Positions 2,686 to 26,273 of a DNA stretch of 52,811 bases are shown piece by piece (position 1 is the stretch's first letter; the number at the start of each line of letters is the position of its first letter). The notes beneath the pieces are model-generated. The model made no database searches. It saw nothing but the letters and a program-made list of their open reading frames with translations, and was not told where the DNA came from. Location of the stretch: contig NZ_CP095474.1 of assembly GCF_023614315.1 (NCBI RefSeq), forward strand, positions 3,561,722 through 3,614,532, given 5' to 3'. The translations under genes were made by a program, and so were the position numbers. Origin of the DNA: Streptomyces sudanensis. GTDB taxonomy: Bacteria > Actinomycetota > Actinomycetes > Streptomycetales > Streptomycetaceae.

Positions 2686-4062
2686 ATGGATGTCGGTGTC
2701 CTCTCCGGCATGGTGAACGAACTCATTCGTGACCACCGGATACCCGGAGCCCAGCTGTCCGTGTACAGCGACGGCACTCTGTGGGAGGTGTGCACCGGCG
2801 TCGAGCGGATCGGCTCCGACGTACCGGTGTCCGTGAAGTCCCGCTTCGCCTACGGCTCGGTGAGCAAGATCTTCACGGCCGCGCTCGTCATGCAGCTGGT
2901 CGAGGAGGGGGAGGTCGAACTCGACACCCCCGTCATGGAAGTCCTCGCGGACGTCGCGGGGCACACGGCGGTTCCCGCGGACCACCCGATGCACCAGGTG
3001 ACACTCCGCCAGCTGCTGAGCCACACCGCCGGGCTCGTCTCCGACTACGAGGGCGCTCCCCTGCGCTCCCCGTCCCTGCGCCGCTACTTCGAGTCCGTCG
3101 TGCGCGACGGGCACTTCGGCGTGCCGGGCACCGCCTTCTCCTACTCGAACACCGGCTACGCCGTGGCGGCGTACGTCGTCGAGGCGCTCACCGGGCAGAG
3201 CTGGTGGGACTCGCTGGAGTCGTACCTGGCGCACCCGACCGGGCTGGACCTCGCGTTCGTCGAGGACCCGCGCCCCGGCCGCGGCCCGGGCGCCACCGTG
3301 AGCGGCCACGCCGTGAACGCGCGCACCGGCCGCACCGAGCCCGTGGACTTCTACTGCGAGTCGACCCTGGCCGCGGCCGGAGGCATCGCGGGCAGCGCCA
3401 CCGACCTGGTGCGCTTCGGCCGCGCGTTCCTCGGCGAGGGCCACGAGGCCCTGGACGCCGACATCGCCGACCCCGACGTGCTGGCCGTGATGGGCCACGC
3501 CGTGCCGGCCGCCGAACCGTTCGGCCTGGCGGCGGGCTGGGGCGCCGGCTGGGGCCTGTACCCCGCCGGGGAGAGCCTGTGGCTCGGCCACGACGGCACC
3601 CTCGACGGCGGCTCCTGCAACGTCCGCGTCGACCAGGCCAGCGGCACCGCCCTGGCCTTCACCACCAACTCCACCACCGGTCTGGCCGCCTGGTTCGACC
3701 TCGTCGGCGAGCTGGACCGCACCTTCGGCCTGCGCGTCGGCCACTACGAGCAGCCCGCTCCCGCGGGCCGTCCGTGCGACGAGGCCGCCGCGCTCGCCGG
3801 CGAGTTCGTCAACGGCGAGCTCGCCATCCGCGTGTCCCACGAGGGCGACGGCGGCAGGCTGCGCCTGGACGCGGACAACGGTGTCTCCGGGGTGCTCACC
3901 GTCGGCTCCGACCTCATCTTCAGCGTGCGCGCCGCGGACCAGGGCGACGTGCTGTTCAGCGGCCGCTTCCTCAGCTCCGGGAAGGGCCGTCCGGCCGACC
4001 TGATGCAGTACAACGGCCGGACCCTGCGCCGGGCGGCGCGCAAGATCTGCCAGGCCGCCTGA
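2686..4062 (+). CDS. Beta-lactamase/PBP-like serine hydrolase, probable stand-alone PBP-type thioesterase (peptide cyclase)
   Basis: 458 residues. Active-site motifs of the class C beta-lactamase/penicillin-binding-protein fold are present: S58-V-S-K61 (SxxK, nucleophile and base), Y153-S-N155 and H302-D-G304. A C-terminal part of about 105 residues (about 355-458) fits the small lipocalin-like domain of SurE-type enzymes, whose length (about 450 residues) is also similar. In that family the enzyme takes the peptide from the last carrier protein and closes it head to tail, preferring a D residue at the C terminus. Here the NRPS lacks any thioesterase and ends in an epimerase, so the same role is inferred. 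It has no signal peptide, consistent with cytoplasmic action. The start ATG follows a GGGGGT ribosome site. It is the first gene of the cluster, 179 nt before NRPS-1. A general D-aminopeptidase or esterase role is the alternative. Confidence 0.85.
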
Positions 4063-4112
4063 CCTCCGGCCGCCGCCCTCCCTCACCTCTTCCTCCCCTC
4101 CAGTTCCCTCCT

Positions 4113-4139
4113 CGTGCCGCCGGCCCGGCCGGCGGCACG
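4113..4139 (+). terminator. Hairpin between the hydrolase and NRPS-1
   Basis: 12-bp perfect stem (4113-4124 with 4128-4139) with a 3-nt loop and no T-tract. A second pair of mutually exclusive small stems follows: 4163-4168/4187-4192 versus 4166-4171/4176-4181. It could end the hydrolase message, limit read-through or shape the NRPS-1 leader. Confidence 0.45.
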
Positions 4140-4241
4140 GCCCTGCCCTCCCCCCTCACGTGGAGCCGCACCGGCGTGCGGTTCCTCGGCTCGCGCCGGA
4201 CCGATACCGCGGCGCGTGCAGCTCTCGAAGGAGTAGCAACC

Positions 4242-24100: not shown

Positions 24101-25956
24101 GGGTCCGGCACGCCGTCGCCGTCGTGCGCGAGGACTCGCCCGGCGTCCGGCGCCTGGTCGCCTACGTGGTGGCCGAGGGCGTCACCGCCCGCGAGGTCAG
24201 GGCGGCGGCCTCCGCGGCGCTGCCCGAGTACATGGTCCCCGCCGCCGTGGTGCTCCTCGACGAGCTCCCGCTCAACGCCAACGGCAAGCTGGACCGCGCG
24301 GCCCTGCCGCAGCCGTCCCACGACGCCCTCGCCGGCGCCGCCTACGTGGAGCCGCGCACCGCGACGGAACGCGCCCTCGCCGGCATCTGGGCCGAACTGC
24401 TCGGCGTGGAGCGCGTCGGCGTCGAGGACAACTTCTTCGAACTCGGCGGCGACTCCATCCTCAGCATCCAGCTGGTGTCCCGGGCCCGCAAGGCCGGTCT
24501 GGAGCTGACGTCGAAGGACGTGTTCGTCCGCCAGACCGTCGCCGGGCTCGCGGCCGGGCTCGACGCGGCCGGGGACTCGCCGTCGGGCGGGTCCCGCGGG
24601 ACGGCGGCCGAGCAGGGCGCGGTGACCGGGGAGGTCCCGCTCACCCCCGTGCAGAGCTGGTTCCTCGACAGCCACCCCAAGGCGCCCGAGCACTTCGACA
24701 TGACGCTGCTCGTCGAACTCGACGAGGCCGTCGACCTCGCCCTGATGCCGCGGGCCGTCGAGGCCCTCCTGGCGCAGCACGACATGCTCAGGCTGCGCGT
24801 CACGCGCGAGGACGGCGCGTGGCGGCAGCGGATCGCCCCGCACGGCGACGCGACGGGCTCCTGGCAGACCGTCGACGCCTCCGGGCTGGACGACGCCGCC
24901 CTCGACGCGGCGATCCACGAGCGGGCGCACCGCCCCCGGCCCGCCGGGCGGCTGGAGACCGGCCCGCTGTTCGAGGCGGTCGCCTTCGACAGCGGTACCG
25001 CCCGCCCCGTCCGGATGCTGCTGTCCGCCCACCACCTGGTGGTCGACGGGGTGACCTGGCGGGTGCTCCTGGAGGACCTGTCGACCGCCTACCAGCAGCT
25101 CGCCGCCGGCAAGCAGCCCGACCTGGGGGCCAAGTCGACCTCCTTCCCGCAGTGGGCGAACCGCCTGGCGGACTTCACCCGCGAGGGCGGCTTCGACGAG
25201 GAGGCCGGCCACTGGGCGGCCGTCCTGGACGGCGCGCCGGTCGAGGTGCCGCTGGACCACCCGGGCGGCGACAACACCGTCGCCTCCCAGGACACGGTCG
25301 TGTCGGCGCTGACCGAGGAGCACACCCGCCTGCTGCTCCAGCGGGTGCCCGGCGCCTTCCGCAGCCGCATCAACGACGTGCTGCTGGCCGCGCTCGGGCG
25401 CACCCTCCAGCAGTGGACCGGGTCCTCCCGGGTGCTGGTGGAGCTGGAGGGCCACGGCCGCGAGGAGCTGTTCGACGACGTCGACCTCTCCCGCACGGCC
25501 GGCTGGTTCACCACCGTCTACCCGGTCGCCCTGGACCTGCCCGGTGACGCGGACTGGCGCCGCACGGTCTCGGCCGTGAAGAAGCAGCTCCGCCGGGTGC
25601 CCCGCAACGGCATCGGCTTCGGCGCCCTCGCCCACCTGGGCACCGAGGAGCAGCGGGCCGGACTGAGGGACCTGCCGATGGTGCCGGTCTCCTTCAACTA
25701 CCTGGGGCAGTTCGGCGGCCAGGACGGCGGGGACGGCTTCTACCGCCGGTTCCTGCCGAGCCCCGGCGGCGACCACGCGCCCGCCGAGCTGCGTACGAAC
25801 ATCCTGGACGTCACCGGCAGTGTGTCCGGGGATCGCCTGGAGTTCTCCTGGACGTACTCGGCGGCGCTGCACCGGCGTGAGACCGTCGAACGGCTCGCCC
25901 AGGGCTTCAGCGACGGCCTGCGCGAGATCGCGGAGGCCGCGGCACCGGGCAGGTAG
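18160..25956 (+). CDS. Nonribosomal peptide synthetase 2, two modules: C-A-T / C-A-T-E
   Basis: 2598 residues. It begins with a basic helix ([16 protein letters not shown]) that could dock with the acidic end of NRPS-1. Condensation motifs HHIVTDGWS (168-176) and HHIVTDAWS (1215-1223) are both LCL-like, matching the lack of an epimerase in modules 4 and 5. Carrier serines lie at about 1029 and 2099; A3 motifs start near 646 and 1707; the epimerase motif HHLVVDGVT is at 2291-2299. Codes read by eye: A5 DAATLAAVCK, close to Tyr/Phe codes; A6 DADDTGFVNK, with two acids in the pocket (239, 278), suggesting a basic or amide side chain. The protein ends after the epimerase with no thioesterase or reductase, so release must be in trans, most simply by the hydrolase at 2686-4062. 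GGAGG lies 8 nt before the ATG. Confidence 0.97.
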
Positions 25957-26063
25957 ACCGTCCGGCGAGCAGACCCCGCGGCGACCGGGCCCGCGGCAGA
26001 CAGACCACCCACGGCAGGCACACCCCGCGGACAGCGGACGGGACACACGAAAGGAAACATCCC

Positions 26064-26273
26064 ATGACCAACCCCTTCGAGGACGAGAACGCCACCTACC
26101 TGGTCCTGGTCAACGCCGAGGGCCAGCACTCCCTGTGGCCGTCCTTCGCCGAGGTGCCGGCCGGCTGGGAGACCGCCCTGGCCGAGACCTCCCGCGCCGA
26201 GGCCGTCGAGTACATCAACACCCACTGGACCGACATGCGGCCCAAGAGCCTCGTCGAGGCCATGGGCGCCTGA
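26064..26273 (+). CDS. MbtH-like NRPS accessory protein
   Basis: 69 residues with the full family signature: [10 protein letters not shown] near the start, P-x-GW in the middle and WTDMRPKSL near the end. MbtH-like proteins bind adenylation domains and are often needed for their solubility or activity. The ATG follows GAAAGGAAAC. It is 107 nt after NRPS-2, in the same direction, and is the last gene of the peptide operon before a strong terminator. Confidence 0.97.

Follow-up and report, generated by a model that had tools for sequence, protein, structure and literature searches.

A thioesterase-less six-module NRPS cluster of Streptomyces sudanensis with a putative PBP-type cyclase and a predicted cyclic hexapeptide product

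The window analyzed here is a stretch of 52,811 nucleotides of Streptomyces sudanensis (NZ_CP095474.1, positions 3561722-3614532, within a single 5.26 Mb contig) that holds a hydrolase gene, two nonribosomal peptide synthetase (NRPS) genes, and a set of accessory genes. A first-pass annotation, made from the DNA letters alone, had described a six-module NRPS with no thioesterase (TE) and an upstream cyclase resembling penicillin-binding proteins (PBP), and had proposed a cyclic hexapeptide. The present analysis supports that annotation in its observations and, as far as the sequence tells, in its interpretation. The cluster, about 35.5 kb long, is predicted to make a head-to-tail cyclic hexapeptide, cyclo(L-D-D-L-L-D), with a probability of about 0.86.

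Assembly line and stand-alone cyclase

The cyclase and NRPS genes, all on the + strand, are listed below, with lengths in amino acids (aa) and domains abbreviated as A (adenylation), T (carrier), C (condensation), and E (epimerase).

2686..4062, +, putative PBP-type (SurE-like) stand-alone peptide cyclase, 458 aa
4242..18098, +, NRPS-1, 4618 aa, modules 1-4: A-T, C-A-T-E, C-A-T-E, C-A-T
4287..5291, +, A1, code DAFAMAGVCK, aromatic-like; no preceding C domain (predicted L starter)
6024..7355, +, C2, LCL-type motif HHIVSDGWS
7410..8456, +, A2, code DAFSIGGTFK, Val-like
9192..10445, +, E2 epimerase domain (residue 2 predicted D)
10536..11843, +, C3, DCL-type motif HHILLDGWS
11904..12911, +, A3, code DAFAAGAVCK
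13641..14897, +, E3 epimerase domain (residue 3 predicted D)
14988..16253, +, C4, DCL-type motif HHILLDGWS
16350..17381, +, A4, code DAYAWGVTFK, probably aliphatic-like; no E domain after it
18160..25956, +, NRPS-2, 2598 aa, modules 5-6: C-A-T, C-A-T-E, no TE
19672..20679, +, A5, code DAAALAAVCK, probably aromatic-like, Trp suspected
22819..23895, +, A6, code DAWSTGFVNK
24640..25932, +, E6 terminal epimerase domain (last residue predicted D)

Module order, motifs, cyclase clade, and conserved gene content are directly observed. The module order was read with profiles built from the window's own domains, and the Pfam Condensation and AMP-binding matches agreed with it in position. NRPS-1 most likely starts at GTG 4242, which was chosen from the GAAGGAG just upstream, and its first domain is an A domain; module 1 lacks a C domain. 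Modules 2, 3, and 6 have an epimerase domain, in each case with the motif HHLVVDG. The C domains following modules 2 and 3, and these alone, carry the DCL-style HHILLDGWS, and the other three differ, HHIVSDGWS (C2) and HHIVTDAWS being among their motifs. NRPS-2 ends seven residues past its epimerase match. The missing C domain of module 1, the three epimerases, the change of C motif, and the end of NRPS-2 after its epimerase had been pointed out in the first-pass annotation and were recovered here. Module 1 lacks an E domain, and an E domain closes module 6; an L-D-D-L-L-D product is predicted from this order, the chirality being deduced from domains rather than measured. PBP-type thioesterases join an N-terminal L-residue to a C-terminal D-residue, head to tail (PMC11735501, PMC7459860), some members accepting Gly at the C terminus instead, and the L-first, D-last arrangement required by SurE-type enzymes (PMC11735501) is the one predicted here, as had been anticipated.

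The absence of a TE from the six modules was examined with PF00975, which gave eight matches genome-wide and none in the window, the nearest lying about 26.6 kb past its right end. A TE near the cluster was rejected, as this nearest match, judged by strand and frame length, stands in a 1359-aa frame that also holds its own A domain. There, at 3641175-3644549 of the source genome (L013, L056), the thioesterase match of the A-domain frame is partial.

The positions of the substrate codes were set by motif, following PheA numbering, with the Lys of the NGK motif as the tenth letter. The A2 code shares 8/10 letters with the Val code in the table of PMC8399532, and the A1, A3, and A5 codes share 6/10, 6/10, and 7/10 letters with the Phe code of that table. 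The last variable letter of the A6 code differs between alignments, one of which has a gap. A substrate for module 6 was sought among solved A domains and none was found; 36 general A-domain relatives were returned, the three best all being linear gramicidin synthetase. Searched as literal text (first nine letters; eight for A6), the six codes gave no match in the literature covered. Provisionally, these weak predictions suggest residues that are aromatic, D-Val-like, D-hydrophobic, aliphatic, aromatic (perhaps Trp), and, at position 6, D.

The gene at 2686-4062 appears to encode a SurE-type (PBP-type) peptide cyclase, a further branch of a known enzyme type, and this assignment is supported by similarity, catalytic residues, and phylogeny. 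In a phmmer comparison with solved sequences (97 matched), SurE (6KSU) was the best match at E 2.8e-99 and Ulm16 (8FEK) the second at 8.1e-70, followed by an alkaline D-peptidase at 3.6e-25. The identity was 42% to SurE and 38% to Ulm16, and the SurE alignment spanned residues 7-449, including the C-terminal part, where enzymes of this class carry a lipocalin-like domain. The SxxK, YSN, and HDG motifs noticed earlier in this gene, namely S58-x-x-K61, Y153-S-N155, and H302-D-G, aligned with SurE S63, K66, Y154, N156, and H305; except for G235, the offset of the SurE numbers was checked only by the residues landing on the motifs. The five catalytic residues (Ser, Lys, Tyr, Asn, and His) were identical in 57/57 aligned rows.

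A phylogeny of the 458-residue hydrolase, as had been proposed, was built from 64 rows, 57 of which formed one clade (support 100/99) with SurE, Ulm16, and the window cyclase. The D-peptidase, four beta-lactamase-like paralogs from the source genome, and two distant matches fell outside this PBP-thioesterase clade; the own-genome paralogs L022-L024 were left out of the tree, and of the 18 distant matches only L072 and L075 entered it. The window cyclase stood in a subclade of 18 rows (100/100), next to which came Ulm16 with L035 (94/80) and then SurE (90/89). The label HEXA was given to 16 rows. Seven of these come from complete six-module clusters (the window, L025, L090, L091, L092, L094, and L118), and the remainder are cut by contig ends or are duplicates, L097 showing only the two-module gene of its cluster; L070/L116 and L071/L117 are identical rows.

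The cyclase is a stand-alone gene beside a TE-less NRPS, and NRPS domains were found at 52/55 cyclase-clade loci (the window and duplicate rows included), compared with 0/7 loci of own-genome paralogs and 1/18 loci of distant matches. The flanks were mostly 1.5 kb for the clade, 1.5 kb for the paralogs, and mostly longer for the distant matches. The three clade loci that showed no NRPS domain (L029, L051, and L052) begin at contig ends. The first-pass annotation had named three findings that would speak against a cyclic hexapeptide. Two of them were sought, a hydrolase falling outside the PBP-thioesterase clade and a thioesterase just outside the window; the hydrolase groups inside the clade, and no PF00975 match occurs within 26 kb.

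Related clusters and probable concerted evolution of modules 2 and 3

Relatives of the cyclase were collected from several samples. In a genus sample of 392 genomes including the source, 75 had a match at E <= 1e-40, and the best after the source itself was G386, a second Streptomyces genome, at 86%, followed by one at 43%. Among named records, the best match was Streptomyces somaliensis DSM 40738 (95%). A class sample of 394 genomes contained 14 with a match at E <= 1e-60, source included, and 200 genomes of one further actinomycete family (f17) contained 17, of which 11 showed 52-62% identity. The named f17 matches were Nocardiopsis ansamitocini and Marinitenerispora sediminis, with cyclases identical to two f17 rows of the tree; Marinitenerispora belongs to the Nocardiopsidaceae.

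The complete 4+2 six-module layout was found in six further clusters, in G386 and in the f17 genomes G551, G597, G652, G621, and G775, and because it recurs in all of these, it is not a product of chance. The L-first, D-last order was kept in all six, and the clusters cut by contig ends (G760, Nocardiopsis, Marinitenerispora, G567, and G707) likewise start with A-T. Across the five complete f17 clusters, codes 4, 5, and 6 were identical or 1-2 letters apart, and code 1 was the same in four, G775 being the exception; it also differed in the incomplete clusters of G567 and G707. The Streptomyces and f17 clusters have different codes 2 and 3. The f17 A3 code, DAMSVGA(V/I)AK in the five complete clusters, is Leu-like and shares 7/10 letters with the Leu code in PMC8399532. 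The three Streptomyces cyclases fall among f17 sequences, which makes a transfer into the lineage of S. somaliensis plausible, although support for the inner fork is low (84/64, with 98/88 for the wider group of nine).

Two relatives in the same cyclase subclade, G753 (L125+L112) and G636 (L126+L114), have five modules, with A-T, C-A-T-E, C-A-T on a divergent gene and C-A-T, C-A-T-E beside the cyclase. Their predicted order is L-D-L-L-D, with one D module fewer. In G485, their nearest relative, a two-module gene only is present and the contig ends there, so that loss is no more than a possible origin of the five-module form. In a neighboring cyclase clade, the Streptomyces clusters L061-L062 (G090), L067-L068 (G145), and L065 (G054) have A4 codes like that of faulknamycin A4 and a short C-domain match ahead of module 1.

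The two D modules are closely alike within a genome. In the window, the identity of E2 to E3 was 91.4% for the protein and 94.0% for the DNA, many 60-bp steps between modules 2 and 3 reached 98-100% identity, and the homogenized T-E-C blocks covered 8916-11843 and 13365-16253. The identity between E2 and E3 was 70-100% within the genomes of six clusters, whereas the window E2 was 52-57% identical to the E2 of the four f17 clusters compared and 80.5% to that of G386; the A2/A3 identity was 45-52%. A tree of 25 E domains grouped E2 with E3 of the same genome in 7/7 complete six-module clusters and placed the nine terminal E domains together. Repeated gene conversion would account for this pairing more readily than seven separate duplications, given the position-specific A3 code retained by the f17 clusters. 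There is an earlier description of concerted evolution in biosynthetic clusters (PMC4256081). As a separate observation, A3 resembles A1 more in Streptomyces (66.9% in the window and 61.2% in G386) than in f17 (50.5-57.6% across the four clusters compared), and the Streptomyces A3 code is different too, as though the core of A3 had been replaced by that of A1.

What appears to be new in this analysis is the wider family, together with its five-module sister form and its homogenized D-D modules. With a little less than even confidence, we propose an uncharacterized cyclo(L-D-D-L-L-D) hexapeptide family spread over two actinomycete families, in which gene conversion maintains the similarity between the carrier-epimerase-condensation cassettes of both D modules in each of the lineages examined. 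Through these repeats, a lineage could drop one module and yield a cyclic pentapeptide within the same cyclase branch. The six- and five-module forms in one cyclase subclade would represent a natural experiment on the joint change of ring size and cyclase tolerance, and the homogenized cassettes would point to a unit of natural recombination of possible use in NRPS engineering. Moreover, this bounded cluster family carries a concrete stereochemical prediction and adds a further branch of PBP-type cyclases, enzymes sought as catalysts of peptide macrocyclization.

Proposed product, alternatives, and known systems

Chirality, ring closure, residues, and the export and regulatory roles are predicted from the gene content as follows. 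A1 would load an L-residue with no preceding condensation step. Modules 2 and 3 would add residues that their own E domains epimerize to D, the DCL-type C domains then passing the chain on, and modules 4 and 5 would add L-residues. Module 6 would add the final residue, which the terminal E domain would convert to D. Ser58 of the cyclase would then accept the peptide from the final carrier domain, and attack by the free N terminus, that of L-residue 1, would join it to D-residue 6, releasing cyclo(L-D-D-L-L-D). The two ABC transporters may serve export of the product or self-protection, and regulation may fall to the SARP and two-component genes.

Several points weigh against this reading. The DCL/LCL profiles applied to the relatives were trained on the window's own domains, and the A6 code has no assignable substrate, which makes the fit at the ring-closing end tentative. 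The characterized members of the cyclase tree are SurE and Ulm16 only, and the SurE branch is long and was flagged by the tree program. The cyclase G232 aligns with SurE G235, the residue of the SurE pocket described in PMC11735501, but it is common across the clade (49/57 aligned rows) and hence has little discriminating power. In the stretch of G775 covered, MbtH, the ArsR-like gene, and DrrAB were present, and the sole ABC1 match was weak and overlapped DrrA.

Because cyclic hexapeptides have been reported from Nocardiopsis, the product of this family could already have been isolated, for example as a nocardiamide-type compound, with the gene link alone missing; we consider this unlikely. 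Such clusters are complete in five f17 genomes, and a cluster with the same start, cut by a contig end, lies in Nocardiopsis ansamitocini. For nocardiamides A and B, which are cyclic hexapeptides from Nocardiopsis, the listed residues are L-Tyr, D-Leu, and D- and L-Val, plus L-Ile in A (PMC6017543), a composition to be set beside the Leu-like f17 A3 code. However, the residues listed give no full sequence, leaving no D/L order to compare, and the passages covered that name the nocardiamides contained neither a residue order nor a gene cluster. The A3 code of Streptomyces also differs from that of f17. Nocardiotide A, another Nocardiopsis cyclic hexapeptide, was not favored as the product, as it is reported to be all-L, at odds with three E domains; according to a review, there has been no research on its biosynthesis (PMC9231205). 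No literature match among those listed combined Nocardiopsis with a PBP-thioesterase term, which is weak evidence as subscription literature lay mostly outside the search. The earlier suggestion of a possibly new product is reasonable but still unproven.

It is also conceivable, but quite improbable, that the PBP-like enzyme mainly hydrolyses the hexapeptide and that the product is linear or a mixture. In one study, SurE acting on a surugamide F thioester gave mostly linear peptide (PMC7459860). The L-first, D-last order retained in every further complete cluster is, by contrast, what would be expected if cyclization were selected. Finally, Pfam names the hydrolase Beta-lactamase only, and the NCBIfam models among the matches listed (25/43) are all of beta-lactamases, peptidases, and hydrolases, far under their cut-offs, but an unrelated beta-lactamase or D-peptidase (e.g., a resistance gene), with another enzyme off-loading the peptide, is very improbable given the tree and E-values that place it with SurE and Ulm16, the NRPS domains at its clade's loci, and the window free of PF00975.

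Clusters with PBP-type thioesterases are a well-known kind: in a set of 1421 actinobacterial genomes, such systems, of 4-10 modules, have been reported for 166 organisms (PMC7459860). The surugamide system shares with the window a stand-alone cyclase of one clade and a TE-less NRPS ending in an E domain, and it has the L starter and D terminus that are predicted here (PMC7459860), but its 18 modules in surABCD give octapeptides and decapeptides, compared with six modules, two genes, and other residues here. Ulm16, of the ulleungmycin system, is the nearer of the two characterized enzymes in the tree and has a native hexapeptide substrate (PMC11735501); its identity to the window cyclase is 38%, as given above. 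Faulknamycin is a hexapeptide from two NRPS genes with an MppK-like cyclase (FlkO, an MppK homolog), MbtH, and no terminal TE (PMC8399532). However, the codes of the flk modules point to Phe, Leu, Val, Arg/Orn/Lys, Thr, and Thr, and the E domains of FlkS were reported in the first and third modules of that protein, unlike the 2, 3, 6 pattern of the window.

Biffamycin likewise involves SurE-family off-loading of a short peptide, but its cyclase is fused into the NRPS (BifB, with an embedded SurE domain) and the product is a tetrapeptide ending in Gly (PMC13285481). Pentaminomycin/BE-18257 has a PBP-type cyclase (PenA), and the pentaminomycin modules run L-D-L-L-D (PMC7565604), as predicted for G753 and G636, whereas the window has six modules and two consecutive D positions. 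The desotamide family comprises cyclic peptides with six to ten residues that a SurE cyclase off-loads, and several of its clusters carry a two-component system and an ABC transporter of the DsaMN/DsaKL kind (PMC7459860). With its six modules and putative cyclase, the window may belong to that family; by gene type, its histidine kinase, its response regulator, and its ABC genes are candidate counterparts of DsaMN/DsaKL. Desotamide and wollamide have a D/L order unlike L-D-D-L-L-D, as the first-pass annotation had stated.

Cluster limits and accessory genes

The limits of the cluster were estimated by comparison with G386, which shares window 2505-25975 at 87% DNA identity in the same order, followed by 26034-34101 at 87% and 34134-37905 at 85%, with the order kept. 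The conserved cluster would thereby span about 2505-38042. It extends past 26273, and therefore the interval first proposed, 2686-26273, was too short. The accessory genes downstream of NRPS-2 are as follows.

26064..26273, +, MbtH-like protein, closing the interval first proposed
26358..28904, -, FtsX-type ABC permease
28901..29662, -, ABC transporter ATPase
29646..31004, +, sensor histidine kinase
31001..31636, +, LuxR-type response regulator
31662..35012, -, SARP/AfsR-type regulator
35028..35996, -, ArsR-like DNA-binding protein, 322 aa
36049..36849, -, DrrB-like ABC-2 permease
36849..38042, -, DrrA-like ABC ATPase, final gene of the conserved block

These nine genes, MbtH through DrrA, were all present in G386, G551, G597, G652, and G621 (5/5), and the ArsR-DrrAB block was relocated beside MbtH in the latter four. 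No oxidase or halogenase was found in the Pfam and NCBIfam scans of the listed cluster genes.

A cluster reaching far upstream was rejected, as conservation with G386 was confined to 2505-37905 (85-87% DNA). Outside this block, the region from -6936 to 1054 gave four matches to one XRE-like stretch of G386 that lies beyond the other end of its cluster, and two short G386 matches fell on NRPS stretches far downstream, at about 81.5-82.6 kb. An XRE/DUF5753 regulator gene is located at 29-931 of the window, and two similar stretches lie before the window, at a distance of about 5-7 kb upstream (L054). XRE/DUF5753-like stretches also occur beside the cluster elsewhere, upstream in S. somaliensis and beyond the other end in G386. 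A 2131-aa open reading frame with RHS repeats occupies 44604-50999, outside the conserved cluster.

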